From: Paludibacteraceae bacterium
GTDB taxonomy: Bacteria > Bacteroidota > Bacteroidia > Bacteroidales > Paludibacteraceae
Assembly: GCA_017962085.1 (NCBI GenBank)
Contig: JAGCWA010000037.1
Location: forward strand, 1-35,684
Direction of reading: 5' to 3'
DNA length: 35,684 nucleotides
How positions within the stretch are numbered: position 1 is the first letter of the stretch; each line of letters opens with the position of its first letter. The notes beneath the pieces were generated by a model. The model was not told where the DNA came from and made no database searches. It saw only the letters and a list, made by a program, of their open reading frames with translations. Positions 1,273 through 31,769 of this stretch are shown in pieces. A program made the translations under genes and the position numbers.

Positions 1273-2736
1273 ATGAAAAAACATATACTCTTATGTACGA
1301 TGGCACTAATCAGTGTCATCGGAGCGAATGCTACGTCCAAAATGTACGTGGACGAAAAGGCAGGCAATGGGGTCCAAACGCACATCTATGAGATTTCCGT
1401 AGTGGATTCCATCGTCCATCAAACCGTCGATTCCGTCCATCAAGTGAAGGTCATGATGAACCGATACAGTCATGATATCTACCCAGCGGAAAGTCTGGAA
1501 CAGATCTATTTCACCCCTGAAGACAAGAAGATCGACACGAAACTTGCCTCTTTCAGTGATTGCAAGGGAGGAACAACCAACGAGAACACCAACGCTCTCT
1601 CCTCTCATCACAATGACACCATTGCCACCTACAAATATAACCGAGAGGACAAGGTATTGAATATCAAACTAATATCACTTATCGGCGATTGTTGTGGCGA
1701 GGGATGGGCCGTCAACGCGACCACTTCGGATAGCACCATTGTCCTAATTCCTACTCAAACCGGCAAAGCATCATGCAACTGCATTTGTTCGTTCGACGTG
1801 GAGGTGGATCTGACGAACATAGAGCCTCGTCTATACCTCTTCACAGTGCGGGATGACAAATTCAGCATCAACCTCTCAGAAAGCACGGAGGGTATAATTC
1901 TGGACATTCCAAGAGGCCATTACAATAGAAGCAGCGATTGCAAGTACGTCGACGACGGATTCAGCGATATCTTCCCACAGGAAGACGGTTTTCCTCCTAT
2001 CTACCCAACTGCGCCTAACCAAGACACGGATATTGACATGACAAAGGAGAGTCACGCATTGGTGAAATACATCTTTGAGCCAGAAAACGGAACGGCTTTC
2101 ATCGTCTCCGTCAATAGGGTGTTCAACTGTTGCTCCGCACAAGGTTCCTCAGTGAGGGTTTCAGGAGATACGATCTTCGTCAACTCTTACGAAATCTTCA
2201 TGAGCGAAGAGATGTGCGACTGCGTTTGCCCGTACGACATCTCAACCACGATAGAGAATCTGAAGCCTAAAAAGTACATCTTCATCGTGGACGGCACGGA
2301 GTTCAAAATAGATTTGGAGAAAGACACTGTACTTAACAACACGATATACGACTTCGAACGTGGATTGTTCGTCAAGAACAGCCCATGCAAAAACAAAGAA
2401 GGTGTCATAGAAGATATCGAACTTCTCAAGGAGGGCGACACGCTGGTCTCCTATCAGTTCGACCCGATGGCAGGCACGGGACTCATCATCTCCCACTACC
2501 GCTCGTTGAATTGCTGCAGCGAAAAGGGTTCCAAAACAACCATAGATGCAAGCAACATCACCATCACCACGACGCAATCGGGAGATGTTTGGTGCCAATG
2601 CGATTGCATGTTCGACATCACCACCAAAGTGATGGGGCTGCACCTCAACAAGAAGTACACGTTCAATGTGGACGGCACGAAATTCGATGTGAAATTCGAT
2701 GGTGAAACGCCTATCAGCGGGGTTATCACCAAATAA
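1273..2736 (+). CDS. Exported protein with three tandem Cys-rich domains, function unknown
   Basis: The 487-residue product has a signal peptide (MKKHILLCTMALISVIGANA). Residues 35-80 resemble the N-terminal region seen in many Prevotella exported proteins. Three copies of a ~90-residue domain follow, at about residues 114-203, 259-349 and 387-477. Each copy has a strand (ATYKY / VKYIF / VSYQF), a CC pair (140-141, 286-287, 414-415), a CxCxC cluster (168/170/172, 315/317/319, 441/443/445) followed by FD or YD, and a strand near YxFxVDGTxFxI. Copies 1 and 2 are each followed by a linker (starting DIPRG or DFERG) with one further Cys. Five Cys per copy point to disulfides or a bound metal or cluster outside the cytoplasm. 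No T9SS tail is evident at its own end. I do not recognise the family. It lies four bases after the T9SS-tailed gene, so the two products may act together at the cell surface. Confidence 0.85.
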   Translation: MKKHILLCTMALISVIGANATSKMYVDEKAGNGVQTHIYEISVVDSIVHQTVDSVHQVKVMMNRYSHDIYPAESLEQIYFTPEDKKIDTKLASFSDCKGGTTNENTNALSSHHNDTIATYKYNREDKVLNIKLISLIGDCCGEGWAVNATTSDSTIVLIPTQTGKASCNCICSFDVEVDLTNIEPRLYLFTVRDDKFSINLSESTEGIILDIPRGHYNRSSDCKYVDDGFSDIFPQEDGFPPIYPTAPNQDTDIDMTKESHALVKYIFEPENGTAFIVSVNRVFNCCSAQGSSVRVSGDTIFVNSYEIFMSEEMCDCVCPYDISTTIENLKPKKYIFIVDGTEFKIDLEKDTVLNNTIYDFERGLFVKNSPCKNKEGVIEDIELLKEGDTLVSYQFDPMAGTGLIISHYRSLNCCSEKGSKTTIDASNITITTTQSGDVWCQCDCMFDITTKVMGLHLNKKYTFNVDGTKFDVKFDGETPISGVITK

Positions 2737-2822
2737 ACATACGGCAAGTTACTTCCCGACAGAGTTTCACAGGAAACAGAGAAGAAAACATAACGGAATA
2801 GCATATTTTAGGGTATTTTTAT

Positions 2823-2830
2823 TACATTTG
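2823..2830 (+). promoter_or_regulatory. Candidate -7 box for the thioesterase gene
   Basis: TACATTTG matches the Bacteroidetes TAnnTTTG -7 element exactly and lies 45 bases before the ATG at 2876. No good TTTG -33 box is seen at the usual distance, so the call rests on the -7 element alone. Confidence 0.4.
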
Positions 2831-2863
2831 TGGAGGTGCAGGATCATGTACCTCCACATTTTT
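2829..2863 (+). terminator. Hairpin with T-run after the exported-protein operon
   Basis: TGTGGAGGT (2829-2837) pairs with ACCTCCACA (2850-2858), a 9-bp stem, followed by a run of T. It would end transcription from 798-2736. It also overlaps the first bases of any transcript made from the -7 box at 2823-2830, so it could instead be a 5' leader hairpin of the thioesterase mRNA. Confidence 0.55.
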
Positions 2864-2875
2864 TATAGAACGAGT

Positions 2876-3352
2876 ATGGCACTAAAAAAGATTATCAATC
2901 CATGGTATAATTACCCCGGCTACAACTGCTTCGGCTGTAGCCCCGACAACCCTATCGGCCTCCATCTGAGCTTTTACGAGGATGGGGATTACATCGTGAG
3001 CACCTGGCATCCCAGCAAGAACTACCAGGGCTGGATCGACACGATGCACGGAGGCATTCTGAGCACACTGATCGACGAGGTGTGCGGATGGGTCGTCACC
3101 CGCAAGATGCAGGCGAGCGGCTATACCGTGCAGCTGAACGTGAAGTTCCGCAAAGCGGTCCCGACCAACGAACCCGAGCTGACAATCCGCGCCAAGGTGG
3201 ATAAACAGGTGCGCAACCTCGTCTACCTCCACGCAGAGATAACGAACAGCAAGGGCGAGCTCTGCAACGAAGGCGAGGTGGTCTACTTCCTGATGAACGA
3301 GGAGAAATCAAAGGAGATGGGCTTCCTGCAATGCAAGGTGGAGGGGGAATAG
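2876..3352 (+). CDS. PaaI-family hotdog-fold acyl-CoA thioesterase
   Basis: This 158-residue protein belongs to the hotdog-fold thioesterase family (PaaI/YiiD-like), which hydrolyses acyl- or aryl-CoA thioesters in the cytoplasm. The signature is TMHGGILSTLIDE at residues 56-68: the HGG turn (58-60) followed by the helix with the conserved acidic residue (D67/E68). The N-terminal part has NCFGCSPDNPIGL (C18, C21), typical of PaaI-like members. The reading frame is open further upstream, but those codons lie inside the preceding terminator hairpin and the end of the previous gene. ATG 2876 gives a family-typical length and start (MALKKIINPW). The substrate cannot be told from the sequence. It appears to be a single-gene unit ending at the terminator near 3435. 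Confidence 0.85.
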   Translation: MALKKIINPWYNYPGYNCFGCSPDNPIGLHLSFYEDGDYIVSTWHPSKNYQGWIDTMHGGILSTLIDEVCGWVVTRKMQASGYTVQLNVKFRKAVPTNEPELTIRAKVDKQVRNLVYLHAEITNSKGELCNEGEVVYFLMNEEKSKEMGFLQCKVEGE

Positions 3353-3519: not shown

Positions 3520-4670
3520 ACACAAATCCTTGTTATACTGGAATCTACGCTACGAGTAAGTTGAACGTGACCACACAAACCACGGTTAACTTGTCTTAAT
3601 CCTTATTGTACCGAAAATTACGCTACGTGGTTGGCTTCACGCAGGCGCAGAAGACGCAGTACCTAATATCTTAATCCTTGTTATACTGGAACTTACGCTT
3701 CGAGGGCGAAGTGGAACTCGCAGATGATGATCTACGCACTATCTTAATCCTTGTTATACTGGAACTTACACTTCGAGAACGGTGAGTTGGACATCCTTGT
3801 AGCAGGCAAGACAGCGTCTTAATCCTTGTTATACTGGAACTTATGCTTCGAGAATTTAATTTTTACAATTATGGCAAGGTCAAAATTCATGTCTTAATCC
3901 TTGTTATACAGGAACTTACGCTTCGAGATATTAACCAACAGTTCGTCAATGAGATCGCTAACAAGTCTTAATCCTTGTTATACTGGAACTTACGCTTCGA
4001 GTTGGGCGCGGTAGAAATTGAGTCCCTTATCCAAGGGTAGTCTTAATCCTTGTTATACTGGAACTTACGCTTCGAGTTTAGTAAGTCTTCTAAGTGTGCA
4101 ACTGCTAACGCTAAGTCTTAATCCTTGTTATACTGGAACTTACGCTATGAGCCTACACGGACACCGCTCCGACGGAGACGAATATCGAGTCTTAATCCTT
4201 GTTATACTGGAACTTACGCTTCGAGCCATAATCGGTATTATCCTAGCAATATTGATAGGAGGTCTTAATCCTTGTTATACTGGAACTTACGCTTCGAGAT
4301 TATATCAAATTGTTAGACAAGATGAAGATAATCCAATGTCTTAATCCTTGTTATACTGGAACTTACGCTTCGAGATGTCAAGCTTTTGGCAAATCAACCT
4401 GACCAATTCTTGTCTTAATCCTTGTTATACTGGAACTTACGCTTCGAGTATTTAAATTCAATAAGTCTTAACCTAGTGTATTCTTCGTCTTAATCCTTGT
4501 TATACTGGAACTTACGCTTCGAGAAATTTAACAAATCCGAAATTTTCAAAAGTGCATGGTCTTAATCCTTGTTATACTGGAACTTACGCTTCGAGGTTAT
4601 GAAATCAAAGAAACAAGGTTGGGTCAACATCTAGTCTTAATCCTTGTTATACTGGAACTTACGCTTCGAT
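3520..4670 (-). CRISPR. CRISPR array, 37-nt repeats, 16 repeat units and 15 spacers, transcribed leftward
   Basis: Repeat units start at 3520, 3593, 3668, 3741, 3816, 3891, 3965, 4040, 4115, 4189, 4262, 4338, 4412, 4487, 4559 and 4634. Each is 37 bases, on the plus strand running from GTCTTAATCCTTGTTATACT to ...CTTACGCTTCGAG. Spacers are 35-39 bases. Read on the minus strand the repeat ends in ATTAAGAC, which fits the 8-nt 5' tag of type III crRNAs (usually AUUGAAAG/C-like). The units at 3520 and 3593 are clearly decayed and those at 3668 and 3741 have A for the first base, so the left end is the old, distal end. Single changes also occur at 3816, 3891 and 4115. The right-most unit differs only in its last base. 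The repeat has no strong internal hairpin, as expected when Cas6 handles an unstructured repeat. All spacers differ from one another. Confidence 0.97.
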
Positions 4671-4810: not shown

Positions 4811-6280
4811 CTATTGAATATAAAATTTATCAAGGGTGTGCAAAGTCTTCTTCGCCCGGGTGACTGCCGTATATACCCACTGCATCTTCGATTTCGTCAG
4901 ATTGCGGGCCATGTTGCCGAAATCAACATAGACATTGTTCCACTCTCCTCCCTGCGACTTGTGGCATGTCACCGCATAGCCATACATGCACCGCAGGGCA
5001 TTTAGATACGGATCTTCCATCATGGCCCTATTAAATTCCTCGATGTTCTTCTTCTGGTCAATGCCTTTCTTTTTCATCCTTTTCACGAAATCGAGGAAGA
5101 GCTCCGTCTGTTGGTGGGCATCTAGATTCAACACACCGTTGATCAACGTCGTGCATAGCAATAACACCTGCTTCAGATCGCCGGTGAACAACTCACGCAG
5201 GACAACTGTGCGGAAAACGAGCCCCGCCCGGATCACATCCTTGTGATCTATATGGACTACCTCCACCATGTCCCCGTTCATGAGCCCCGTCGGCAAGTTG
5301 TTTTGTATGACCATCAGCAAATCCCCCTTCTGGACGTATGCTTCTGTGAGGTTTAACGCTCTACGCACCGCACTAGAAATCTCCGAACATTTCTTGTTCG
5401 ACTGGCAAATGAATATGGAATCGTTGTATCCCTCCTTCTTGATGTTCTCGATGTACGATTGCACCATGCTGTCCAGGTCCTCGTGCAGTTGCGTGTTCTT
5501 GTTGTAGCGCAATGGGAATCTACCCCATGACGGGAACACATACTGCCGTTCGTTTTCTGGCACCAATGCCCATATCTTCCGGATTTGGAGAGAGGCTACG
5601 ATCAAGTCATTCTCGTTTTTTTGCCTCATGATCTCTGTGAGTTCGGCACCTCGGGAAGACAGGTTGTATTGTCGGGAGAAATAGCTGGACATCAGCGCGG
5701 GAGATTGGATCTCATGGACCGGGGGCAGCTGGCAGGGGTCACCCACGAAGATGAATTTACTCTCCGGGCGGTCGTCGTAGTTCAGCAGTTCACTCAGTAG
5801 TTTTCCCGAGCCGAATTTAGCCTGCGTGACGTTTTTCTCCTCCACATCCGACACCATCGACGCCTCGTCGATGATATAGACCATTGTAGGAAGACATTCA
5901 TCGTATTTGACGGGCTCGAAGTTCAGATACAACTGTCCCGTCGAATCGATATTCATCTCGCTCTCCTTCACGTCGGACAAGTCTTTGTTCAACCTCGAGA
6001 AGGAGTAGATCAGCGAGTGAATCGTTTGGGCAAAGCTGCCACTGATGTTTGACAGCACCTTTGCCGCCCGTCCGGTTGGCGCCAACAGCATGAACGACCG
6101 CTTATCCTTTTTGAGCTTAGCTATCAAAAAGCGCATGAGGGTGGTCTTGCCAGTTCCCGCATAGCCCTTTAGGATAAAAACACGATCGTTGTCGTCAGAC
6201 ACGAAATCAAGTATCTGATCAAGTGCTTTCTGTTGGCTTACCGTCAACTTCAGTTTGTCCAATTCGCTTTTACTTGGCAT
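4811..6280 (-). CDS. RecD-like superfamily 1 DNA helicase, last gene of the CRISPR operon
   Basis: The 489-residue product is an ATP-dependent helicase of the RecD/UvrD-C type. Motif I (Walker A) is GYAGTGKT at 39-46, motif II is DEAS at 138-141, motif III is GDPCQLPP at 180-187, and the C-terminal RecA-like lobe has AVTCHKSQGGEWNNV (436-450) and YTAVTRAKK (470-478). All residues needed for ATP hydrolysis appear to be present. It is shorter than full RecD2 and lacks an obvious N-terminal HhH region. ATG 6280 lies inside the end of the preceding gene (overlap of 11 bases), so translation is probably coupled. Helicases are not part of known Csm complexes. A role in DNA repair or spacer-related processing is speculation. 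Similar RecD-like helicases also occur as ordinary housekeeping genes in Bacteroidetes, so it might be a neighbour rather than a CRISPR component. Confidence 0.88.
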   Translation of the reverse strand: MPSKSELDKLKLTVSQQKALDQILDFVSDDNDRVFILKGYAGTGKTTLMRFLIAKLKKDKRSFMLLAPTGRAAKVLSNISGSFAQTIHSLIYSFSRLNKDLSDVKESEMNIDSTGQLYLNFEPVKYDECLPTMVYIIDEASMVSDVEEKNVTQAKFGSGKLLSELLNYDDRPESKFIFVGDPCQLPPVHEIQSPALMSSYFSRQYNLSSRGAELTEIMRQKNENDLIVASLQIRKIWALVPENERQYVFPSWGRFPLRYNKNTQLHEDLDSMVQSYIENIKKEGYNDSIFICQSNKKCSEISSAVRRALNLTEAYVQKGDLLMVIQNNLPTGLMNGDMVEVVHIDHKDVIRAGLVFRTVVLRELFTGDLKQVLLLCTTLINGVLNLDAHQQTELFLDFVKRMKKKGIDQKKNIEEFNRAMMEDPYLNALRCMYGYAVTCHKSQGGEWNNVYVDFGNMARNLTKSKMQWVYTAVTRAKKTLHTLDKFYIQ

Positions 6281-6617
6281 ATTCTCGGAATCTTGTGAAT
6301 TTAAACTTGGAAATCTTCACGCCGTTCTCCTCCACGGTCTCACGCTGCGTGGTGGAAGCTACGCATTTCACGCCAAAAGTTTTTAGTTTGTTGACCAAGG
6401 CGAAGGTGAAATTCATCTCGCCCATGATGTGGACGGCTGATATGTTGTCCATCGCCAACACCTTCTGCAGGTATTCGTTGGCGAGGCTCTCGATATAGGC
6501 CTCGTCGCCGTCAGGGTCAACCTGCGGGAAAGGCATATCGACAACTGTGTCACCTGCGGCGTCTAGTTGTTCGGGCGTCCAGTTGGCAGACGGGTGGTTG
6601 GAGAGGTTGAGGAGCAT
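6270..6617 (-). CDS. Small CRISPR-associated Rossmann-like protein, possible ring nuclease (Csx15/16/20-like)
   Basis: The 115-residue product starts MLLNLSNHPSANWTPEQLDA and continues VVDMPFPQVDP..DE.YI, AVHIMGEMNFTFALVNKLK and GVKCVASTTQRE. Small proteins of this build (a short N-terminal strand ending in S/T-x-HP, then two or three alpha/beta units and a late STT-R motif) turn up beside type III CRISPR loci. They resemble the Csx15/Csx16/Csx20 group, members of which have been described as ring nucleases that cut cyclic oligoadenylate. The family assignment here is by resemblance only. It begins two bases after the Csx1 stop, and the helicase start overlaps its 3' end. The location directly after two CARF effectors fits a switch-off role. 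Candidate active residues are S6, H8, S87-T89 and R91, but none is proven. Confidence 0.6.
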   Translation of the reverse strand: MLLNLSNHPSANWTPEQLDAAGDTVVDMPFPQVDPDGDEAYIESLANEYLQKVLAMDNISAVHIMGEMNFTFALVNKLKTFGVKCVASTTQRETVEENGVKISKFKFTRFREYAK

Positions 6618-6619
6618 CT

Positions 6620-7945
6620 TCAGTCAATTTTAATATTGAACAAAATTACACCAAAAGCGCAAATGCATTTTTTGATGTTTTCCTTTATTTTTTGCGGTGA
6701 CATAGGTGACCGCATTGACCGCATTCCTGAATGGTTGAAATCATTTCTGACTTCAGTCAGGTTATTGAAACTTTGCACCAGAGTAGCATTTGCAAATAGA
6801 TCATCAGCGAACACCTCTTTTAACTTTCCTTTTTTTTCACTATCAATAATCCATTTATCTTCAGGAATATTATTGAATTTTATAATGAAAGCCTTGTTTA
6901 CTATTTCTCGGGTTGCCTCATCATCTATGCCAATGTCATGCCGCAAACAGAAGAAAGAGACAACGAACTCCTGCAAAATGGTGGCCGCTTGCTGAAACAA
7001 CCCATTGTCGTAACACCACACAGCTGCAGAAAATCCATTCCTGATATTTTCATTTTCATCAAATGAGACCAGAGAAGACTTTATCTTCTCAAAAATTGGG
7101 TTGAATGCATCAACAAATGTTTCTTCAAGATTATCGGCACACTCTTTCAATCCTTTGAACGAGGTTGATTTTATTATGTCCATACCTCGACAAGCTTTCC
7201 GCTCTTCTGTCACTGTCGAAAGTCTTGTAATAAAAGACTTTAATTTTTGTGCAGCCACGTCAGCTCCTTGCGTTTCCTTCAGAATAGGCTTAAACTCTTG
7301 TTCACAAAGCGAAACCAACCGATTGACACTGCCATTTTCGAGATATTGGCCAGCCGCAAAAGTCCAATCTTGAAGTTGCGATAATGAAAGCAAATCAATT
7401 ATTGGAGCTTTGTTATTCTCCTTGTTTCGAGCTTCATAATTACCATATGTTATGCTTTTGATTGTTACGTTTTTTAGAAACTTGGCATAGTCGCACAAGA
7501 CCAGAATCAGCATCGGTAAAAAACGGAAAGCGTGCGTTACATCGAAATAGAGTTCGTCGCCATCACTGAGTTCATTGAATGTAGATGTGAATATTTCCCA
7601 AATTTCTTTTTCGTTGTTACCATCTGGGATAGGTAAATCTTTGATTGTGAACTGTAATTGCATTCTTTTCAAAACATTTTCCAATCCCTCATATTCAACT
7701 TCTTGTTTTTTAGAATAATCTTGGCGTTTTATAATCGATTTGTCCCAATTGTTTTTTCGTGCCAAATCTGTAAGCAAAAACAATCCTATATCTTTAGAAG
7801 TCCAATCCTTTGCATTTAAATATTGCAACGTTGCAGATTGAACAAAAAAAGTCTCGTCGGATTCAAAGTGAGCATCTTCTCTTACATATTGGCATTTACC
7901 ATAAAGACCTGTTCCTAAAACCGATATAAAAACTTTTCTTCCCAT
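6620..7945 (-). CDS. csx1: Csx1-family CARF-HEPN ribonuclease (TIGR02221/Csx2-type)
   Basis: The 441-residue protein starts MGRKVFISVLGTGLYGKCQY, the typical first strand and loop of the TIGR02221/TM1812 group of CRISPR-associated proteins. The CARF domain covers about residues 1-185. Its second conserved motif is DVTHAFRFLPML (135-146), which in this family binds cyclic oligoadenylate. A helical linker leads to a C-terminal HEPN domain with RNDFNH at 400-405, a perfect R-x4-H RNase motif. The expected role is collateral RNA cleavage when the Cas10 complex detects target RNA. It lies 14 bases after the Card1-like gene and 2 bases before the small ring-nuclease-like gene. The gene is visibly AT-rich compared with the helicase downstream. 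Which ring size (cA4 or cA6) it uses cannot be read from the sequence, although Csx1 proteins usually use cA4. Confidence 0.9.
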   Translation of the reverse strand: MGRKVFISVLGTGLYGKCQYVREDAHFESDETFFVQSATLQYLNAKDWTSKDIGLFLLTDLARKNNWDKSIIKRQDYSKKQEVEYEGLENVLKRMQLQFTIKDLPIPDGNNEKEIWEIFTSTFNELSDGDELYFDVTHAFRFLPMLILVLCDYAKFLKNVTIKSITYGNYEARNKENNKAPIIDLLSLSQLQDWTFAAGQYLENGSVNRLVSLCEQEFKPILKETQGADVAAQKLKSFITRLSTVTEERKACRGMDIIKSTSFKGLKECADNLEETFVDAFNPIFEKIKSSLVSFDENENIRNGFSAAVWCYDNGLFQQAATILQEFVVSFFCLRHDIGIDDEATREIVNKAFIIKFNNIPEDKWIIDSEKKGKLKEVFADDLFANATLVQSFNNLTEVRNDFNHSGMRSMRSPMSPQKIKENIKKCICAFGVILFNIKID

Positions 7946-7959
7946 CTCCTAAAATCCCC

Positions 7960-9105
7960 TTATTTCGTATTAATATTAAACAATTCACTATCTAAAAGAA
8001 GAGCTAACGCTTTTTCATGAGACATGCCCAAATGGTCGTCTTGCAGGGAAAAGGAAAGCAATCCATGCTCCTCGCATTTCTTCCTTGCCACGTCCGTCAT
8101 TCTAGCATCCGTCACGAACAAGCCTTTACTACCTGTTCCTCCGTAACCTTTCACCACGCTTCGAAATTTGTCGATGTCTGTCGTGTGGGTGATTTGGGTC
8201 TTGCACTCCACAAACAAAATCTTTGTTCCCGTGTTTACGATAATGTCCACTTCGTTCTTGTCCACATTGGGTCTGAATGGGAAGTGACAATTCAGATAAA
8301 CGCTTTTGGCTTTAGCCCACTTCGAAAGCAATGTTGCCACCTCAAACTCAAACCAGCCCGAATTGAATGCGAGGTCAACCGCATTCTCCGACTCAAATGT
8401 GACTTCTTGGGATTTGCCATTTTTCTTGGCAAGGAAGATTCGCACAAAACCGATGCTATCCTTGGTCGTCTTTTCCCATTCGACATACGATTGTGAGCCA
8501 TTTGCCATCAAATCGAACTTGCCACTATTCTGATTGCGCAATATATTCTGCTGTTTATCATTAAGAGTGGCCGTCAGCTTGTTGAAATCGAAGACATTAA
8601 ACAACCTGATATTCTTTATCATATCAAGTGCATTCAAATCTTTTTCAGTGTAATCGGTCAGCCTTTTATAATTTTCCAATCGATTGCCATACAGGCGGAA
8701 GAGAACATCCATATCAAACTCAAAATCGGACTTGTGCTCCATCGTCCGGTAGTTCCACAGCACGTTGTTTTGGTCCATATAGACAACCGAGGCATTGGGC
8801 ATCGAATCGAAGACACGTCCGAAGAGGTGTGACCATGATTTCAGTCCGCTGGAAATATTGAGCGTGACCTCATCCTCCTTATACTTCTCCGCCAATGCTT
8901 TTGCTCGTTCCATAATCAGGTGCGGATCAGTCGTATCCAGAGGTTTCTGTTCATCCTCCGTAATGTGGATTTCGCTCCTCACCTTCTCAACCACATCACG
9001 GCTGGACTCCGAATAGATAAATACCACCTTATCGGGCTGTGTGGCTACAATGCCATGATAGACGGGAGCCGGCTGACCACCAACGAGGGTAATGTGCACT
9101 TTCAT
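7960..9105 (-). CDS. Card1/Can2-like CARF nuclease (DUF1887 family, PD-(D/E)XK)
   Basis: The 381-residue product has an N-terminal CARF domain (first strand HITLVGGQPAPVYHG at 4-18; second motif NISSGLKSWSHLF at 83-95, the DUF1887 equivalent of N-TGGtK). A helical and winged-helix-like middle follows, then a C-terminal PD-(D/E)XK nuclease fold. Nuclease residues can be seen at E253 (GWFEFEV), D287 (NEVDII) and E300-C-K302 (FVECKT). This is the plan of Card1 and Can2, nucleases switched on by cyclic tetra-adenylate that cut single-stranded nucleic acids or nick DNA. The second CARF motif is SSG rather than TGG, a mild departure. Its ATG (9105) overlaps the AbiEii stop as ATGA, so its translation is probably tied to that of the toxin. 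It is the second CARF effector in this operon. Confidence 0.85.
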   Translation of the reverse strand: MKVHITLVGGQPAPVYHGIVATQPDKVVFIYSESSRDVVEKVRSEIHITEDEQKPLDTTDPHLIMERAKALAEKYKEDEVTLNISSGLKSWSHLFGRVFDSMPNASVVYMDQNNVLWNYRTMEHKSDFEFDMDVLFRLYGNRLENYKRLTDYTEKDLNALDMIKNIRLFNVFDFNKLTATLNDKQQNILRNQNSGKFDLMANGSQSYVEWEKTTKDSIGFVRIFLAKKNGKSQEVTFESENAVDLAFNSGWFEFEVATLLSKWAKAKSVYLNCHFPFRPNVDKNEVDIIVNTGTKILFVECKTQITHTTDIDKFRSVVKGYGGTGSKGLFVTDARMTDVARKKCEEHGLLSFSLQDDHLGMSHEKALALLLDSELFNINTK

Positions 9106-9932
9106 ATCGCTTGGAATTTTATACGTTCAGCCAATTGCAAAAAATAGGCATTGGACCAAATGCTTATCTCTTCGCGTTTTTTTAGGAATGGTTCCACATC
9201 CTCTACCACCTTCTTTATGTCCGTTGAGGATAACCGTTCTTTCAGACGAGTGATAAAATCTTCCCTACTCAAATCCAGCCCATTAAACTGCTTGGCACGT
9301 TCCTGTAAATGGCTGAAATTTAACGGGATGCCACTCCTGACATACCATTCAAAATCATACCAGTCACGTCCTTTCACCCTATGTTTCCAATTACGGAACA
9401 ACAATGCATGCATTTTCCCTGCGAACAAGTCCGACAGGGTGAAACAACGAACCATAAACGAAAACGGTTGTAATAGCAGCAAATCCTCGGTCTCGAAATT
9501 CAATGGAGGATTGGTGTCCACCTCGATCTTAATCTTAATGCTCTTCTCCGTCTGAAACGTAAGGTCATACACATCTGTGTTATCTTTAAGGAATGCGGAT
9601 TCAACTTCCCCGAAACTCTTTTTGTCTTTTTTGTTGATCTCCACCTTTCGTCCGAGGCTCTCAAATTCCGCGACAATGGAGGGAAAGTAACTCTCGAACT
9701 GAAAATTCTCATCTTTTGTTATGAGGGAGAAATCCATATCCTCGCTAAACCGGTTCAATCCATGGAATATGCGTAGACATGTGCCTCCGTAGAATGCGGC
9801 ATGGTTGAAAAAGCCTCCACGGTACAAACCCGCGAGCGCGATCTGTTGGTTCACCTCAAACACAGCATTGCGTTTCTGTTGCTCAGTTGAGCAATCGTAG
9901 GCGGAAAGCATATTCTGGTATATCTCGTTCAT
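9102..9932 (-). CDS. abiEii: AbiEii-type nucleotidyltransferase toxin
   Basis: This is the toxin of a type IV toxin-antitoxin (abortive infection) system. From ATG 9932 the product has 276 residues. The nucleotidyltransferase core is clear: FYGGTCLRIFHGLNRFSEDMDFSL at about 47-70, with the GG-turn at 49-50 and the D-x-D pair (D65, D67). KIEVDTNPP follows, and then the family's third region LSDLFAGKMHALL with KGRDWYDFEWYV. Family members transfer nucleotides to RNA targets such as tRNA and halt growth. The frame is open back to 9992, but those codons lie inside abiEi. ATG 9932 forms an ATGA overlap with the antitoxin stop and is the natural start. The stop likewise overlaps the ATG of the Card1-like gene. 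All key residues look intact. Confidence 0.9.
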   Translation of the reverse strand: MNEIYQNMLSAYDCSTEQQKRNAVFEVNQQIALAGLYRGGFFNHAAFYGGTCLRIFHGLNRFSEDMDFSLITKDENFQFESYFPSIVAEFESLGRKVEINKKDKKSFGEVESAFLKDNTDVYDLTFQTEKSIKIKIEVDTNPPLNFETEDLLLLQPFSFMVRCFTLSDLFAGKMHALLFRNWKHRVKGRDWYDFEWYVRSGIPLNFSHLQERAKQFNGLDLSREDFITRLKERLSSTDIKKVVEDVEPFLKKREEISIWSNAYFLQLAERIKFQAI

Positions 9933-10552
9933 CGTTCCAAAATTTTTGCAAGTAAGTTCAGTGTCACACGCTTTTTCCCAACCTCCGCACATTGTCGAAA
10001 GATGGAAGGATTCATTTTCTCAAAGGCATCCATGTCCAATCGGAAGTCATCTTCAAGACATTCCAGCACCTCTTTCTTGTATCGAAGATTTAGGCCATGC
10101 GTATTGACGATCAAGTCGCAAAGGGCTTTCTCTGGTGATGCCATAATGAATTGGGTATCCCCCGATTTTATTTGCGTCAAACCAATGCTGTAATAATCTG
10201 CAGGACATGAGATATATTGGAAGCGTCCCAAACTATTTTCGAAACATCGGGAGTGCTTGGTGGTCATCGATTGCATCGTGTAAACCATTTCCGGGATAAG
10301 ACCATAGTAACGTAACGCAGAATGCATGGAGACGTATGACGGACCGTACAGGTGGTTGGCGATCAGTTCGGTCGAGATTGTCATCCCACTTTTTTGCGGA
10401 CTGACAACGTACAAACCCCGCTTTAGCCGAATGATATCACCCGACTTCTCCAACTCCTGCACCTTTTGGTTCTTCCCGACAATATCAGGGAACAATCCAC
10501 CAATCGTGCTGTTGGCGATTGGAATATTTTTCAATCTCTCTAATCTATTCAT
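9929..10552 (-). CDS. abiEi: AbiEi-type antitoxin / transcriptional autoregulator
   Basis: The 207-residue product is the partner of AbiEii. The N-terminal ~55 residues form a winged helix with the family signature DIIRLKRGLYVV (near 39-50). The rest is the AbiEi C-terminal region, with YGPSYVSMHSALRYYGLIPE and ASPEKALCDLIV, both typical of this family. Antitoxins of this type neutralise the toxin without stable binding and repress their own promoter by binding inverted repeats. The stop overlaps the abiEii start (ATGA). A 117-base gap separates it from csm5, the largest gap within the run of 12 genes. The gap carries a matching inverted repeat (10574-10610), so this pair probably has its own promoter as well as read-through from csm5. 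Confidence 0.88.
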   Translation of the reverse strand: MNRLERLKNIPIANSTIGGLFPDIVGKNQKVQELEKSGDIIRLKRGLYVVSPQKSGMTISTELIANHLYGPSYVSMHSALRYYGLIPEMVYTMQSMTTKHSRCFENSLGRFQYISCPADYYSIGLTQIKSGDTQFIMASPEKALCDLIVNTHGLNLRYKKEVLECLEDDFRLDMDAFEKMNPSIFRQCAEVGKKRVTLNLLAKILER

Positions 10553-10573
10553 GCGTCAAAAATAGTAAAATTT

Positions 10574-10610
10574 CGTACACTAAAATATGTTTTTTATATT
10601 TTTCTGTACG
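10574..10610. promoter_or_regulatory. Inverted repeat upstream of abiEi, candidate AbiEi operator
   Basis: CGTACA (10574-10579) and TGTACG (10605-10610) are perfect inverted arms separated by 25 AT-rich bases. The arms lie 22-58 bases upstream of the abiEi ATG and enclose an AT-rich stretch that includes TATTTTAG on the minus strand, a weak -7-like box. AbiEi antitoxins are known to bind inverted repeats upstream of their operon, so this is the likely operator. The assignment is from position and symmetry only. Confidence 0.5.
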
Positions 10611-10669
10611 GATATTTACTGTTTTATGAGATTTTCAGAGATGTTAGGGGCAAGTCAACGAGAGAGACT

Positions 10670-11842
10670 TCACTCTATAATCGACAATTTCACAAATCCT
10701 AGCAACTCACACTCATCATCCACTCTCCTCGTCTTAGGGAAATCATATTGTTCGTAAATTGAATTTTTAGGACGAGATACAGGAACAACAAGGGAATCGA
10801 AATTCTTTAAACTTTTCGCCCAAGCTCCTGTAATAAAGCACCAACCAGAGCCGTGTCCAATTCGAAGAATACACTCTTTCCCATCTTTGCACTTCCTTGC
10901 AATTGATAATATATCGTTTACCTTTCCCATATAAGTGGATACATTGTCGGACTCGTCTTTGTCTTCTCTTTCTTCCCAATATTCAAGTTCCTCACATAGA
11001 AGCTTTTGTGTATGTGTATTAATTGTTCTGAACAACTCGGCTTCTGAACTCATACAAAGAGGCAACTGGTTAACCTTTCCCCGAGAAAAGTTGTATCCTG
11101 AAATGTTTAGTTTCAATTGGAACTCCGATTCATCTTCTGGTGATACAGCTTCAATCAATTGAGGCTTGCTTGCGTCCCAAAAACTTTGACGTTCACGCTC
11201 GTTAATATTCACCATGCGAATTGCCACCTCTCTCAACTCTCCAAAATAGGCATCGCCAACTTGTAAAAAACGAAACACATCTTTATTAGGGTCTACGCCC
11301 TCCTTTTTAGAATTAAATCCAAACAACTCTGCTTCAATTTTTTGAGCATTGGCTTTAAGTTGAATCTTCCCTCTCTTGTCTGGACTCGGATTTCCATCGG
11401 AATCTCGTTTGGTTTTGTCGATTTTACTTTCCTTGTCTTGGATTCCACCCACCAGTGAGGCAAGAATAGCAGTACGAATCGCACCTTTGATTGAACTCCC
11501 GGGAATATACGGTCTGCCTTGTCCATCGTGGATTTGTTCTTTTAATGTATCGGTATCTCGAACTTCTGACCATCCAAGAATAATACGATTAGAATAGTCC
11601 TCCAATTTAGCATTCGGGACATATCTCTTTACTACTTGTGAAGTCGATTCTTTTCGTTCAATAGCTGTGACCCATTGTTGTACGTTGTCAACACCGATTA
11701 AGTCCAATACTTTACGTGGTTCTATGATAGATATCACATCGCCATCTTCCGTCTCTCCTGTGACGAAATCCGTTCCATATTGTAAAGTTTCTCCAGAACC
11801 AATGTGTACCGCCGTAAGTGTTTCTATCTTTATTTTACTCAT
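10670..11842 (-). CDS. csm5: Csm5, type III-A RAMP protein
   Basis: Csm5 caps the crRNA 3' end of the type III-A complex and helps its maturation. The 390-residue product has the RAMP opening IKIETLTAVHIGSGETL (4-20) and, near residue 113, RPYIPGSSIKGAIRTAIL, the glycine- and basic-rich loop of Csm5. The length is typical. A charged insert (about residues 135-165, rich in K and D) precedes the ELFG motif region. The start at 11842 is two bases after the csm4 stop. It is the last gene of the core csm set; the toxin-antitoxin pair comes next. AT-rich like the other csm genes. Confidence 0.9.
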   Translation of the reverse strand: MSKIKIETLTAVHIGSGETLQYGTDFVTGETEDGDVISIIEPRKVLDLIGVDNVQQWVTAIERKESTSQVVKRYVPNAKLEDYSNRIILGWSEVRDTDTLKEQIHDGQGRPYIPGSSIKGAIRTAILASLVGGIQDKESKIDKTKRDSDGNPSPDKRGKIQLKANAQKIEAELFGFNSKKEGVDPNKDVFRFLQVGDAYFGELREVAIRMVNINERERQSFWDASKPQLIEAVSPEDESEFQLKLNISGYNFSRGKVNQLPLCMSSEAELFRTINTHTQKLLCEELEYWEEREDKDESDNVSTYMGKVNDILSIARKCKDGKECILRIGHGSGWCFITGAWAKSLKNFDSLVVPVSRPKNSIYEQYDFPKTRRVDDECELLGFVKLSIIE

Positions 11843-11844
11843 AA

Positions 11845-12828
11845 TTAGTTCAAATTTATTGGTATAGCGAATGGTTTCCCACTTCGATAGACAGGGTGCA
11901 TACGTTCATCATTCCATGACGGTTGTAAGTCAACTATTTTGCCAGTCAATTTAGTTGTTGTTGGGAATACGGATCCGACATTAAAGGCATACACTGACTT
12001 CTTACGTAGATGTTTGAAATCCTCCTCCTGACTACCAGCTAAGAATCCGCCACGCTGAACAAGTTCATACTTCGAGTTTAGCAAATCCAATGAATCAATT
12101 TCTTCCTCAGCAGGAATATACAACGACAGCAACATGGTGGCATTAGCCGATTTTACACAATCAAAATTAATCGGCTCTGCTTTTTCAACTTCAAATTTTC
12201 CGCCTCCTATGTTCTTGTCTGTTCCTATCCCGGTTTCCCCCAACATTTGGAACAACTCAACAATCTCCGTTTCCTTGTTTTTTGGCGCATCCAACACGCA
12301 AAACAAGCCTCCTTCTTGATGGAAATAAGTCCAATCAAAAAAGAATGGATCAGCATCGGCTCCATCGTTGCGAGGAACTGAGACTCTTTGATTTACTTGC
12401 GATTTATAAGGGACTGCAAATTTCGACACCGATTTAGACGATAGCAAAAATATGCTTTGAAGTTGATTTGATTGCACATTTACAGATTCACCACATATCA
12501 GTTGTTTCCATGTCTCATATTCCACAAATTTCACTTTTTTCAGTTTTTTCCTTGAAGAATACTCTTCCATGTCTGAAACAGAAACATTCATTTTTCCTTG
12601 TGGCTTAGGGAAGAATAGACATTGTCCAAAGAACGGGAATGCTGAACTTACTGTGAACGATTCCATAAAATCTTTCAAGTCGTCAACCTTCCCGCATTGA
12701 ACACGCATGGCGGCCAAAGCTGCAGAAATTGTATCGCTTTGCAATACAGAGGAAGAGAAGTCATAGTTTTCTTTCCCCGTACCCATATGCAAAGGCGATA
12801 TATGCTTTAGTTTTATAACAACTGCCAT
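11845..12828 (-). CDS. csm4: Csm4, type III-A RAMP protein
   Basis: Csm4 binds the crRNA 5' tag and bridges Cas10 to the Csm3 backbone. From ATG 12828 the product has 327 residues. The first strand and loop VVIKLKHISPLHMGTGKENY is a standard RAMP start with the H-G-G-like turn, and the late glycine-rich loop GETGIGTDKNIGGGKFEV is the Csm4 signature. A TTG codon six bases upstream (12834) overlaps the csm3 stop and could serve as start, adding two residues; the ATG is preferred. Tightly packed between csm3 and csm5. Confidence 0.9.
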   Translation of the reverse strand: MAVVIKLKHISPLHMGTGKENYDFSSSVLQSDTISAALAAMRVQCGKVDDLKDFMESFTVSSAFPFFGQCLFFPKPQGKMNVSVSDMEEYSSRKKLKKVKFVEYETWKQLICGESVNVQSNQLQSIFLLSSKSVSKFAVPYKSQVNQRVSVPRNDGADADPFFFDWTYFHQEGGLFCVLDAPKNKETEIVELFQMLGETGIGTDKNIGGGKFEVEKAEPINFDCVKSANATMLLSLYIPAEEEIDSLDLLNSKYELVQRGGFLAGSQEEDFKHLRKKSVYAFNVGSVFPTTTKLTGKIVDLQPSWNDERMHPVYRSGKPFAIPINLN

Positions 12829-12830
12829 AC

Positions 12831-13478
12831 TCAATAAGTTTTGTCTTCTCCATCTGGATTTACCAAATCGATTTTTACTTGTCCATAGCCACGAGAACCA
12901 TGACCACCCAAGTAATCATCTTCAAGCAACTTGATTGCCTGTTCCAGGGTTTTCTTCAAATCTTCTTCATTTTCTCCTTCAAAGATGTTCAACACCATAT
13001 TCAATTTGAACTTTGCTCCCGCAGGAACTCGCTCGAAGGTTCTAGGATTAGCTTTTGCAGTAACACGATCAATAGCGACTTCTGTCTTACTTTCTGTATA
13101 TAGCATGTCTGTATTACTGAAATTGCAAGCTTCAACATCCAATTCTGCATCACGGACAATCAATCGAGAAGGTCGATTGTTGTTATTCCCTGTCGCGACT
13201 CCAAACAATTTACCTGAAATCGAATTTGGGTCATCACTCGGTTTCGCATTGCCTTTTTCATCAAGGGTCACACAACCATTTGCAATTTCAACTAGCGATC
13301 GCATTTTCCCCTTCAATGAACTTCCAGGAATGTAAGGAATGAAGTTAATCGGATTTCTTACTACGAATTTATCTGGACCTCCAATATTTAATGCAGCATT
13401 AGTACCACCAATATGCAATCCAGTTTTTAGTGTGATAGTTCCTGTATATAGGATCTTCTTCTTTAGTTTTATAGTCAT
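12831..13478 (-). CDS. csm3: Csm3, backbone RNase of the type III-A complex
   Basis: Csm3 forms the helical backbone along the crRNA and cuts target RNA every six bases. The 215-residue product reads GLHIGGTNAALNIGGPDKF at 20-38. D36 lines up with the catalytic Asp of Streptococcus thermophilus Csm3 (D33, in the same GG/GAIDSP context), so target RNA cleavage should be intact. Further family marks are PYIPGSSLKGKMRSL (48-62) and the late LLEDDYLGGHGSRGYGQV. Length and layout are normal. The gap to csm2 upstream is 27 bases. Confidence 0.95.
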   Translation of the reverse strand: MTIKLKKKILYTGTITLKTGLHIGGTNAALNIGGPDKFVVRNPINFIPYIPGSSLKGKMRSLVEIANGCVTLDEKGNAKPSDDPNSISGKLFGVATGNNNNRPSRLIVRDAELDVEACNFSNTDMLYTESKTEVAIDRVTAKANPRTFERVPAGAKFKLNMVLNIFEGENEEDLKKTLEQAIKLLEDDYLGGHGSRGYGQVKIDLVNPDGEDKTY

Positions 13479-13505
13479 AATAATGATATTTTATTCGTTA
13501 TTAAA

Positions 13506-14039
13506 TCAATCCTTTCCACCGTATGCTTTGTGATAGGCAAGTATGGCCTCCAGTAAGTTACAGAAGTTATTATACATCTTTGAGTCATAACCATTATTTG
13601 TAACAACCTCCCATCCTTTGTTAAAAATCAGTTTGAATAAAGTAAGCCCTTTTGTCTTATTGCGGCCTTCCGCATAAGCGACTTTAGCTTTCAGCAATAC
13701 AAACGAAGACTGACCCTCAGCGCTGTTAATGCCTTTTAACTGAATCCGTTTGATTTCACCATAAACATTTCTGATTTGAGATTTACTTAGTTTATCCTTG
13801 TCTCTCTCATCTTTTGGAGCCATATATTCCCCTGACTTTTCAGCAAAATCATTCATGTCTTTATCTGCTCCCTCTGTTATCCATCGATTATTAAAGGATA
13901 ATTGAGACAAAAATTTATCAGGGAAAAGTCTGTCTTTATTATCTCCCTCGGGTTTATTTCTCTCCCATTTTTGAAACCCACCTCCTTGAGGTCGATCTCC
14001 CAGTCGTGGTCTCTGGTAATTGTTCTCGAAACCTTCCAT
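13506..14039 (-). CDS. csm2: Csm2, small subunit of the type III-A complex, with an unusual N-terminal extension
   Basis: From ATG 14039 the product has 177 residues. The frame is open back to 14102, but that would overlap the cas10 3' end, so the ATG 19 bases after the cas10 stop is preferred. The helical core (about residues 65-175) contains KLSKSQIRNVYGEIKRIQ and LLKAKVAYAEGR, which are typical of Csm2: a helix with Q-x-R-x-x-Y and a second helix with K-x-x-Y. The first ~45 residues are low complexity and rich in R, G, P, N and D (for example QRPRLGDRPQGGGFQKWER). They make the protein longer than usual Csm2 (roughly 120-140). Csm2 is identified by order as well as by this helix. Confidence 0.88.
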   Translation of the reverse strand: MEGFENNYQRPRLGDRPQGGGFQKWERNKPEGDNKDRLFPDKFLSQLSFNNRWITEGADKDMNDFAEKSGEYMAPKDERDKDKLSKSQIRNVYGEIKRIQLKGINSAEGQSSFVLLKAKVAYAEGRNKTKGLTLFKLIFNKGWEVVTNNGYDSKMYNNFCNLLEAILAYHKAYGGKD

Positions 14040-14058
14040 ATAACTAATCAGTTTAAAA

Positions 14059-16560
14059 TTATTTATTTGTTCTGTATTCCAATTCCGCCCATCTTGCAGC
14101 AAATGTCCATAATTCCAAAGGATGATAATCCGTTTGGATGGATTTACCGTTCAAAGTGTTTTTGTTTTTGTCACATACTTCCTTGATGCAATTGTCAATC
14201 ATGTTGTTAACTGCTTCTGTGTTTGACCTTCCTTTCATGCGACTTAGGTCGTACGTAAGCATCCAGTATGTTTTCACTTCTTTTATCTTGTGGTTTATAA
14301 TTTTTGCATTTTCGTAATGCATCATTAATTTTGACAGAAAGGATTTGGGCAATTGTTCCTTTATCAACCAGTCATATAAATCGTTTTTCAACTCTTCTAC
14401 CACATCAAACTCTTCATCCCAATTTAAAGGCATATCCATAAACGACAAAGAATTCTTTGTGTTGTTTTTGCATGTGTGGTCTTTGGCTTGCTTCTCTTCC
14501 ATTTCGCTTTCCTCTGCTCCTTTCATTATCGGAAACTTAGATGGAACAATGGCTATTCCTCCTGACAACGAAAACGCAGGATTTTCGCATGTATACGACC
14601 TGAAATCAGCTTTTATTTTCTTTGCCGTCTCTATCATTACATTCCAACTACCTACGATGAACACATCGTCTCCACCACTGTATATAATGAACGATTTATC
14701 TGGGTCGGTTTCTCTCCAGATAGAGTTCAAATAACCAGAGAAGAAAAAGTCGAAAGAACGGCTCAAAGCTGCATATCGTGATAATGTAGCCCGATCTGGC
14801 GCAATCCCCTTCTGGAAGATGTTTCCCAAATTGTCAACATCCATTCTCAGCACCCCCATTCGTGAAAAGTTATTATTCTCACACATTTCTTCAAATGTTG
14901 GGACGTCTTTCCCATCTATCTCATTTCCACCATAAAACAACAATGAATAGATATTGTTTATTCCATCTATGGTATGCATGAAACTACAATCTCCGTTCTT
15001 CCCATTTAAGGTAATTACAGTAACCTTGTCAGCCGAAGCTCGCAGTTCTTCTTTCATTTCCGACAAATCCTTTTCGCTATTCAAGAAGTAATAGGTGAAT
15101 CCTAAATTCGCAGGTGATATATGTGTTTTTTCGTTCCAGTAAGAAAGTGGCTCTCCGTCTTTCACAACAATGAGGTTTGTTTCCCGCAACTTTTTACCGA
15201 TTTCAATTTGCTCATTAGTCGTTTTCTTCAATTTTAGACCGTCTTTGATTATCGGTTTTTCATTGGGCAGAAATTCTTCTCCTGTTATGCTATCCCTATC
15301 AGTGTCTCCTCCTTGAAGAATAGGGTTGAAAAAATCTGGATATCTGGACATTATCTGCGTAGCAAATTTTGCCGATTTCTTTTTGTCCCGTTTCTCAAAA
15401 AGTTCTCCCCAAATCTTACCTAAGTTCTGTCCATCTTTGTGCATAAGTGCTTCTTTTGACATCTCAACGCTATCAATTGCTACATATAGAGATGTGCCGT
15501 GTGTTTCAAACAAATGTTGTTCTATTGTTTGTATGGCATTCTGCAATTGTTGTTGCACAAAAACTGTATTCGGAGCCAATAAATAAAAACTGCCACCTGA
15601 GTTATATACTATATTCGCTTGAAATAGATTCAATTCCTTCAACAAATAGCGGACTATGGTGTCTGATAATAGAGAAAGATAAAACGAGCGTCCTTTTAGA
15701 TTTTTACCCGCATGTTTTGATACTATCTGATAGATATACGGTTGGATACCACTAAAGTCAGCTCCAATCAATAGGAATGGGTTTTCTGAAGATTCCTTGT
15801 TTTGATAAAAGTCGTACAAGCATACTGACAATGCGGCTGTGGTTTTCAAGTGATCATAAAGAGACACATCAGGGAAATCAATAGTACTTGAGGGCACACT
15901 GCTTGTGTATTTTTGTATCAGATTCAAAAATGTTTCTGCAAAAGCATGATACGTATTTGCTTGTATCCACTTGAATTCTTCCACAAATGCATTCCATAAA
16001 GATGCATAGTCTGGTTCAATTGGAAATTCTTTCTTTGGAAAATATGCTTCAGTAAGTTCCATTGATGTTACGGGTAGATGCCACCATTCGTTCTTCCCTT
16101 TCTCGAAATTAACCGTTTGTAGAATTGATGTCATTCTTTTTTTCTTGAATGCATCCCAGTCCTTTTCGTCTTGTATGTCGTTGAATGCATTGTCTCTATC
16201 CATACCAGACGAAAGGCTATCTGCTTCCTTAATTATTTGGCCTAAATCAGACAATTGATCTTTTTGCAAATGATGCCCAGCGGCCAAATTGATTAAATTA
16301 TTTCTGTTTGTCATGTCGCCAATTTCAGAATCAGACAATTTCAAAAAAACAGAGCGAAAATCATCAATGAATTGGGCCGTCCACAAAACATGCTTATGGC
16401 TATATTGCCCTTGATACTGTGGGCAAAACGAACTTTCTTCTTTACTATAATCTTTCAGATGAGTGCTGGATCCTACAGAACCGGTATCCGCCCTCTGATA
16501 AAACTTTCCTATATCATGCAGCAGTGCCGCCAAATACACTTTTTCTCTCGTCGCGTCCAT
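14059..16560 (-). CDS. cas10: Cas10/Csm1, cyclase subunit of the type III-A complex
   Basis: Cas10 detects target RNA binding and makes cyclic oligoadenylate; its HD domain can cut single-stranded DNA. From ATG 16560 the product has 833 residues. The HD domain opens with YLAALLHDIGKF (H15, D16) and continues with GHH near 95. The first palm has LIGADFSGIQPYIYQI (about 264-279). The second palm carries the cyclase motif IIYSGGDDVFIVGSW with GGDD at 629-632. Both active centres appear intact. An in-frame ATG at 16593 would add 11 residues and overlap cas6; 16560 lies four bases after the cas6 stop and has the A-rich upstream region usual in Bacteroidetes. An intact GGDD agrees with the two CARF effectors in the operon. 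Confidence 0.95.
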   Translation of the reverse strand: MDATREKVYLAALLHDIGKFYQRADTGSVGSSTHLKDYSKEESSFCPQYQGQYSHKHVLWTAQFIDDFRSVFLKLSDSEIGDMTNRNNLINLAAGHHLQKDQLSDLGQIIKEADSLSSGMDRDNAFNDIQDEKDWDAFKKKRMTSILQTVNFEKGKNEWWHLPVTSMELTEAYFPKKEFPIEPDYASLWNAFVEEFKWIQANTYHAFAETFLNLIQKYTSSVPSSTIDFPDVSLYDHLKTTAALSVCLYDFYQNKESSENPFLLIGADFSGIQPYIYQIVSKHAGKNLKGRSFYLSLLSDTIVRYLLKELNLFQANIVYNSGGSFYLLAPNTVFVQQQLQNAIQTIEQHLFETHGTSLYVAIDSVEMSKEALMHKDGQNLGKIWGELFEKRDKKKSAKFATQIMSRYPDFFNPILQGGDTDRDSITGEEFLPNEKPIIKDGLKLKKTTNEQIEIGKKLRETNLIVVKDGEPLSYWNEKTHISPANLGFTYYFLNSEKDLSEMKEELRASADKVTVITLNGKNGDCSFMHTIDGINNIYSLLFYGGNEIDGKDVPTFEEMCENNNFSRMGVLRMDVDNLGNIFQKGIAPDRATLSRYAALSRSFDFFFSGYLNSIWRETDPDKSFIIYSGGDDVFIVGSWNVMIETAKKIKADFRSYTCENPAFSLSGGIAIVPSKFPIMKGAEESEMEEKQAKDHTCKNNTKNSLSFMDMPLNWDEEFDVVEELKNDLYDWLIKEQLPKSFLSKLMMHYENAKIINHKIKEVKTYWMLTYDLSRMKGRSNTEAVNNMIDNCIKEVCDKNKNTLNGKSIQTDYHPLELWTFAARWAELEYRTNK

Positions 16561-16564
16561 ATTA

Positions 16565-17263: not shown

Positions 17264-17580
17264 GATATCATTTTTTTCGGCCAAAATTCCTCAGCCAAGT
17301 GGATTTGAAACAAAACATCCTTTCAACATTAAAAAAGTTTCACTACAACACTGTCAGAGAACATACCTTAGGATATTTGTCTTGTATTTACAAAATAATA
17401 TCATTTTTCATATGAAAACAACAAAGAACACAAAAAAATCCATTTCGGGAACAAAAACATAAACTGACAATGATTTCACCAACATAAAGGAATGAAGCCA
17501 TTATCAAAGATTATAGTCTCACAGATTTTCGCAGATAGACTCCCTAAAACAAACAACAAGGAGAATCGACTATTTATACA
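17264..17580. other. Gap between the methyltransferase and the CRISPR operon
   Basis: This ~317-base stretch is AT-rich and should hold the cas operon promoter on the minus strand. The best -7-like box is TTATTTTG (17398-17391), with one mismatch and no well-placed TTTG -33 box. AGTCT at 17515-17519 can pair with AGACT at 17537-17541 as a weak hairpin after the methyltransferase, without a T-run. No gene is seen. Confidence 0.35.
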
Positions 17581-18915: not shown

Positions 18916-18929
18916 CACTCACAAATGTT

Positions 18930-31697: not shown

Positions 31698-31769
31698 GAC
31701 ATCAATAAAATTATCAGTTATTTCACGATGTAAAATTACAAAAAACAAAAGGAAAACGCAATCTTTTTA

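Follow-up and report, generated by a model that had tools for sequence, protein, structure and literature searches.

A predicted AbiE toxin-antitoxin cassette between the halves of a type III-A CRISPR locus in a Paludibacteraceae bacterium: probable cargo of a defence hotspot

The DNA analysed here, called the window, is a stretch of 35,684 nucleotides that makes up one entire contig of a Paludibacteraceae bacterium (genome G000, our label for the genome of the window, contig C13; GenBank assembly GCA_017962085.1, contig JAGCWA010000037.1). It carries a type III-A CRISPR locus with a predicted AbiE toxin-antitoxin pair, abiEi and abiEii, inside it. On the minus strand the order is cas6, cas10, csm2, csm3, csm4, csm5, a gap of 117 base pairs (bp), abiEi, abiEii, a card1-like gene, csx1, csx20 and a helicase gene, with the CRISPR array beyond (Table 1). 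Profile matches and gene order bear out a sequence-only reading of this DNA, which had placed abiEi and abiEii on the same strand between csm5 and the CARF nuclease genes; the ATGA by which it had the stop of abiEii overlap the start of card1 is also present.

In type IV AbiE systems AbiEi represses and neutralises, without direct binding between toxin and antitoxin. Judged by the sequence features examined, the cassette is an AbiE type IV system. The abiEii product belongs to the DUF1814 family and contains motifs I-IV (GG at residues 69-70 of the 296-residue open reading frame, then RFSEDMD, KMHALLFR and RDWYD), and an AbiEi-family gene lies directly upstream in a bicistronic arrangement. 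The motif residues were unchanged across 10 aligned sequences except for the lysine of motif III, which is E in G044. Passages of PMC3985639 report that mutation of motifs I-IV abolished the toxicity of Streptococcus agalactiae AbiEii. The abiEii frame can be read from 9992 (296 residues), but its true start is probably the inner ATG at 9932, since the relatives at loci L022, L023 and L024 start in this way, with an ATGA overlap on the abiEi stop. The matches of AbiEi in Pfam and NCBIfam fall under the curated cut-offs. The ratio of nonsynonymous to synonymous substitutions (dN/dS) of abiEi was 0.05 against G007 (6 changes in total) and about 0.06 against G010, where dS, at 1.42, is near saturation. 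Single-sequence structure models were poor (mean predicted local distance difference test score 40 for AbiEii and 36 for AbiEi), and searches of solved structures with both proteins, as single sequences and as profiles, gave weak or spurious matches only (best profile match 6y56, E 0.012). Relatives of AbiEii were also seen in viral contigs, at 2 loci.

The gap between csm5 and abiEi contains the sequence TATTTTTG, which we take to be a -7 box of the Bacteroidetes type; no good -33 element (TTTG or TTG-type) was found at a spacing of 17-22 bp from it. Beside it lies a 37-bp imperfect palindrome, a candidate AbiEi operator, whose half-site pattern has no second match in the whole window. Among 11 abiE promoters, 6 have an inverted repeat with a score reached by 0-1 of 200 shuffles, namely those of the window, G083, G051, G058, G091 and G022. 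The half-sites G-ACAGA and TGT-C were invariant, and the -7 box region conserved, across 6 aligned abiE promoters; these were picked by eye from 12 at hand and include the window and the near-identical G007, so the invariance is no independent test. Passages of PMC3985639 and PMC7319586 describe inverted repeats across the S. agalactiae abiE promoter to which AbiEi binds, and AbiEi of the window may repress a promoter within the III-A operon. The DNA similarity to the stand-alone abiE of the congener G010 takes in 71 bp upstream of abiEi and stops 15 bp short of the abiEii end. The cassette looks autonomous, with its own putative promoter and operator, which can be aligned with those of some stand-alone abiE operons.

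Table 1. Features of the window (positions counted from its first letter)
Feature	Position	Strand	Evidence or remark
abiEi, antitoxin/repressor, 207 aa	9929..10552	-	PADLOC AbiEi 7.6e-72, residues 10-207
abiEii, DUF1814 nucleotidyltransferase toxin, 276 aa from inner ATG	9102..9932	-	PF08843 5.7e-32 (above cut-off); PADLOC 1.1e-116
ATGA overlap, abiEii stop/card1 start	9102..9105	-	
TATTTTTG, presumed -7 box of Bacteroidetes type, upstream of abiEi	10557..10564	-	
37-bp imperfect palindrome CGTACAGA...AGTGTACG, candidate AbiEi operator	10574..10610	-	score matched by 1/200 dinucleotide shuffles
abiE cassette with DNA homology to stand-alone abiE of G010	9117..10623	-	79.7% identity
C5 cytosine DNA methylase, left hotspot border, gene upstream of cas6	17581..18918	-	91-97% with G011, G005, G015, G010, G007, G001
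Thioesterase, right hotspot border	2699..3352	+	
Effector half of III-A locus: csm5, csm4, csm3, csm2, cas10, cas6	10670..17284	-	family profiles
cas6	17284-16565	-	
csm5	11842-10670	-	
Card1-like CARF-PDDEXK (DUF1887) nuclease	7960..9105	-	PADLOC CARF_PDDEXK 1.1e-150
Csx1-type CARF-HEPN	6620..7945	-	R400xxxxH kept
csx20	6270..6617	-	PADLOC 2e-35; NCBIfam match under cut-off
SF1 RecD-like helicase, accessory half	4811..6280	-	
CRISPR array, 16 repeats	3520..4670	+	two low-coordinate-end repeats degenerate

The genes that border the locus, a methylase and a thioesterase, also enclose other defence genes in related genomes. The methylase was present at 91% identity or above in 7 of the 16 genus genomes; two more have a relative of 65-66% identity, with the other border genes not adjacent. 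G010 and G015 repeat the order methylase-abiE-thioesterase of the window; in G010 the gene beside the stand-alone abiE is the same methylase (94% over 234 residues). Between the two border genes of G010 and G015 tblastn found no cas genes, no CRISPR remnant was visible by eye in the junctions, and neither Csm1 nor this Card1 was found in the whole assemblies. In G005 methylase and thioesterase flank a restriction enzyme-like gene (PADLOC REase_II 8.1e-31, no Pfam match), in G001 the methylase is followed by other genes, and in G011 by cas6 and cas10 until the contig ends. The contents of this one slot range from a restriction enzyme-like gene through a toxin-antitoxin pair to a CRISPR locus built around that pair, which shows reshuffling at this site. 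The toxin gene of G015 is cut, with residues 1-57 of the 296-residue reading left (about 37 from the inner ATG), and its antitoxin gene is intact. In G003 (contig C107, L035:1501-1590) 30 residues of the abiEii end are left, at 87% identity; methylase and thioesterase were not found on the stretch fetched.

The sequence-only reading had proposed counting how often abiE directly precedes a DUF1887 gene. A profile of eight Card1-like proteins gave 27 loci in genome contigs and 16 strong full-length matches among 358 family genomes. Merging of duplicates left 29 card1 clusters. In 27 of them an upstream gene was recognised, and the 2 others were left out; upstream means here the nearest gene in the query set, with other open reading frames intervening in L064 and L067. 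AbiE preceded card1 in 2 of the 27 resolved clusters, those of the window and G007, which form one lineage. Csm1 turned up in 19 of the 358 family genomes and in 29 of the 393 genomes of the order (47 distinct genomes, 4 of them scoring under the family cut-off); in 2 of the 47, G000 and G007, a PF08843 match lay on the contig that carries Csm1. Since several Csm1 genomes are fragmented, AbiE near Csm1 may be undercounted. AbiEii is common by itself, PF08843 being present in 232 of 358 family genomes. By the same reading, confinement of the pair to one strain would have counted against its proposal. Strictly the pair is not so confined, as two species carry it, but the loci of the window and G007 are 98.1% identical over 7913-13122 and abiE within III-A is counted as one event. 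Recurrent, independent co-occurrence of AbiE with type III operons was thus not found among these card1 loci and Csm1 genomes, and the idea of AbiE as a regularly recurring accessory of type III loci was rejected. Titles and abstract openings in an open-access library yielded no publication that connects AbiE with a III-A operon.

The gene before card1 varied among the clusters, being an AAA_14-DUF4143 gene, a gene for a small membrane-looking protein, Cad1-NUDIX, CARF-HEPN, or only csm5 or another RAMP gene. AAA_14-DUF4143 occupied this slot in 7 of the 27 clusters (one with a small protein after it, one a fragment) and is a more recurrent card1 neighbour than AbiE. In the Bacteroidales type III loci L013/L054, L051 and L017 an AAA_14-DUF4143 gene overlaps card1 just as abiEii does (genes at L051:1759-3075, L054:6685-8001 and L017:7657-8982), indicating that the ATGA between abiEii and card1 is not peculiar to AbiE. 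The case warns that a gene overlap should not be taken for a functional partnership. The half comprising card1, csx20 and the helicase is combined with several markedly dissimilar sets of RAMP genes. In our reading two exchangeable halves, cas6-csm5 on one side and card1-csx1-csx20-helicase-array on the other, meet at the csm5/card1 boundary, and abiE is placed on this joint. At L067 a 597-residue gene (L067:6185-7978) with weak SIR2/short-Argonaute-associated matches (PADLOC 3.3e-15) lies between the RAMP genes and card1.

On balance we favour the explanation that abiE is an ordinary, self-contained AbiE cassette, carried as cargo of the methylase/thioesterase defence hotspot, which in the window and G007 sits at the joint of exchangeable III-A halves. 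We do so because the stand-alone abiE of G010 has homology to both the cassette and its upstream DNA, because G010 and G015 carry abiE but no CRISPR at that site, where G005 has a restriction enzyme-like gene, and because AbiE adjoins card1 rarely, although it is common, in a slot with variable contents; the border genes are the strongest of these supports. AbiEi would repress abiEi-abiEii by binding to the 37-bp palindrome that spans its promoter, and AbiEii, as a nucleotidyltransferase, would halt growth once AbiEi is lost. The likely role of the pair would be stand-alone abortive infection, stabilisation of the island, or both, and any service to CRISPR immunity would be incidental. Of the proposal that abiE is built into the III-A operon as an addiction or second-line module, the position held, but comparative support was missing: there is one locus lineage, the pair apparently has its own promoter and operator, and abiE occurs without CRISPR in G010 and G015. 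A dedicated link between abiE and CRISPR is weakly supported.

Several observations weigh against the hotspot cargo explanation. The proportion of synonymous differences (pS) between the abiE alleles of the window and G010 is 0.64-0.80, near saturation, compared with 0.08-0.31 in the flanks (0.72 in gene g798), so the shared site need not imply simple common descent; abiE may either have arrived at the hotspot more than once or be an old resident with homogenised flanks. Moreover, the recent history of csm4, csm5, abiEi, abiEii and card1 is a common one in the two species (dS between the window and G007 0.016-0.091), so that abiE does move with the CRISPR block. The palindrome score was non-significant in 5 of 11 abiE promoters (G010, G044, G065, G035 and G086), and the ATGA overlap, together with the lack of a convincing terminator from 7500 to 12000, leaves room for real coupling.

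The comparison of the window with G007 showed a mosaic locus. Card1 is 98% identical between them, and 300-bp blocks of 7913-13122 were mostly 95.7-100% identical, lower toward the csm3 end. By contrast with the low dS of csm4 to card1, six flanking genes gave values of 0.16-0.88 and g798 a value of 2.7; csm2 (0.96), csm3 (0.43) and csx1 (1.10) are divergent alleles, and cas6 has a dS of 0.33. The III-A locus looks to have been exchanged piecewise between species, with abiE as part of the exchanged block. Divergent stretches were seen at 7558-7913 and 13122-13965 amid DNA of about 96-100% identity; cas6 and the array differ too, and the 15 spacers of the window have none in common with the 19 of G007.

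Regulatory coupling would make the AbiEi-repressed promoter a second promoter of card1-csx1-csx20-helicase, so that a stop of protein synthesis, brought on by infection or by effector activity, would lower AbiEi and co-induce toxin and CARF effectors. The palindrome and -7 box retained within the operon agree with such read-through, as do the abiEii/card1 overlap and the number of terminator-like sites in 7500-12000, which is no higher than in shuffles (4 found, 3.6 expected, both strands). In five clusters card1 starts 6-22 bp after csm5 and there seems to be without its own promoter, and AAA_14 cassettes in the slot likewise have a -7 box and upstream repeats. On the other hand, the arrangement is limited to one locus lineage, a good -33 element is lacking, and between the abiE promoter and card1 the coding strand has one terminator-like site, a weak one, at 9835-9817 within abiEii; we consider coupling a possibility, but an unlikely one. 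If abiE instead guarded the CRISPR locus as an addiction module, with a toxin that outlives its antitoxin, deletion of the whole island would be punished. Passages of PMC3985639 describe AbiE as able to stabilise a plasmid, the cut toxin and intact antitoxin of G015 are the order expected for an active toxin (a single case), and the abiE of G010 and G015 could be left over after loss of both CRISPR halves. However, that site has no cas gene by tblastn and no visible remnant, the arrangement with III-A is not recurrent, and a pair placed between the halves would protect poorly, as either half can go without it, which makes this explanation rather improbable.

Little probability is likewise left for abiE as a neutral passenger, trapped between the halves by hotspot recombination and now without function. 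The single lineage and the mosaic of divergent csm2, csm3 and csx1 would fit it, as would the decay of abiE in G015 and the abiEii remnant of G003, but abiEi and abiEii are intact in the window, with every motif kept and few amino-acid changes. A CreTA-like guard, in which a CRISPR-like RNA represses the toxin, has in its favour the location of a toxin in a CRISPR locus. Ungapped searches of the window, whose scope does not reach strongly degenerate or gapped repeats, gave no repeat-like sequence outside the array up to 11 (plus strand) or 13 (minus strand) mismatches of 37, and no spacer match elsewhere with fewer than 13 mismatches; this explanation is extremely improbable and was rejected.

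The AAA_14-DUF4143 ATPase genes of the slot have 3-4 direct repeats upstream of the start, at an exact 33-bp spacing, in 7 of 7 loci (L051, L054, L056, L058, L061, L065 and L066, with the L068 fragment left out), and a -7 box was seen with the repeats upstream of slot AAA_14 cassettes. Among the matches listed, 30 genus loci (L094-L123, including three slot loci and some near-duplicates) showed a 33-bp period in 21, reached by 0 of 200 shuffles (L123 weakest), and a 32-bp period, by score only, in six (L116, L117, L118, L119, L121 and L108); L097, L112 and L115 had neither, leaving 27 of 30 periodic. The motif varies among paralogues and the period is constant. In the phylum sample, the 30 PF13635 loci with the highest scores gave no 32- or 33-bp period that exceeded 40 shuffles; one of them had a period of 22 bp, and in one the start was misplaced. 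The term DUF4143 was found in one paper of the open-access library. The promoter repeats look to be a trait of the subfamily of about 440 residues, not of DUF4143 at large, and resemble a self-regulatory operator array; they may be more interesting than the placement of abiE. A bolder extension, to which we give low credence, is that AbiEi is a switch for cyclic-oligoadenylate effectors, its loss in infection raising toxin, Card1, Csx1, Csx20 and helicase together, and that self-repressed toxin-like cassettes (AbiE, AAA_14-DUF4143) are a recurring infection-sensed control of CARF effectors. The locus offers a concrete test case for control of CRISPR accessory effectors by the repressor of a toxin-antitoxin pair.

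CARF proteins such as Card1 and Csx1 are cyclic-oligoadenylate effectors. Csm2-Csm5 and Cas10/Csm1, the components of a III-A system, were all found (TIGR02578 3.3e-189, TIGR02582, TIGR01899, PF03750 for csm2, TIGR01903 3.2e-60 for csm4), and Cas10 keeps HD and GGDD. The bases at the csm3/csm4 junction are TTGA, and a later csm4 start is possible. The Card1-like protein has the CARF domain and PDDEXK nuclease of Card1/Can2 (DUF1887), and its profile matched solved structures of a DUF1887 protein (8bao, 1.8e-106) and Can2 (7bdv, 9.5e-10). The degenerate array repeats are those at 3520 (8 mismatches) and 3593 (7). cas1 and cas2 did not turn up among the scanned window genes, some open reading frames being outside the scan; tRNA and Rfam scans gave no match, nor did a plasmid megablast with the operon as query. 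ATG/GTG/CTC-rich repeats were seen at 30741-30923, where a minus-strand reading of the open reading frame 30384-31748 would be His/Glu/Asp-rich and perhaps metal-binding.

Compared with known systems, the locus shares with CreTA, which PMC8501985 and PMC9458426 describe as an RNA toxin and RNA antitoxin of type I CRISPR, the presence of a toxin in a CRISPR locus, but the ungapped search gave no repeat-derived element near abiE. The pair resembles S. agalactiae AbiE (AbiEi COG5340, AbiEii DUF1814) as described in parts of PMC3985639 and PMC7319586, being bicistronic with the antitoxin first and having motifs I-IV and a large inverted repeat at the promoter; it differs in that its 37-bp palindrome has other half-sites, its AbiEi falls under the Pfam and NCBIfam cut-offs and it lies inside a III-A operon. 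Type III-A loci with Card1/Can2 and Csx1 have the same cas6, cas10 (HD, GGDD), csm2-5, card1, csx1, csx20 and array, whereas the window has a toxin-antitoxin pair between csm5 and card1. With the methylase-side defence hotspot of exchangeable contents in G005, G010 and G015 the window shares the borders, and its cargo there is CRISPR together with abiE.

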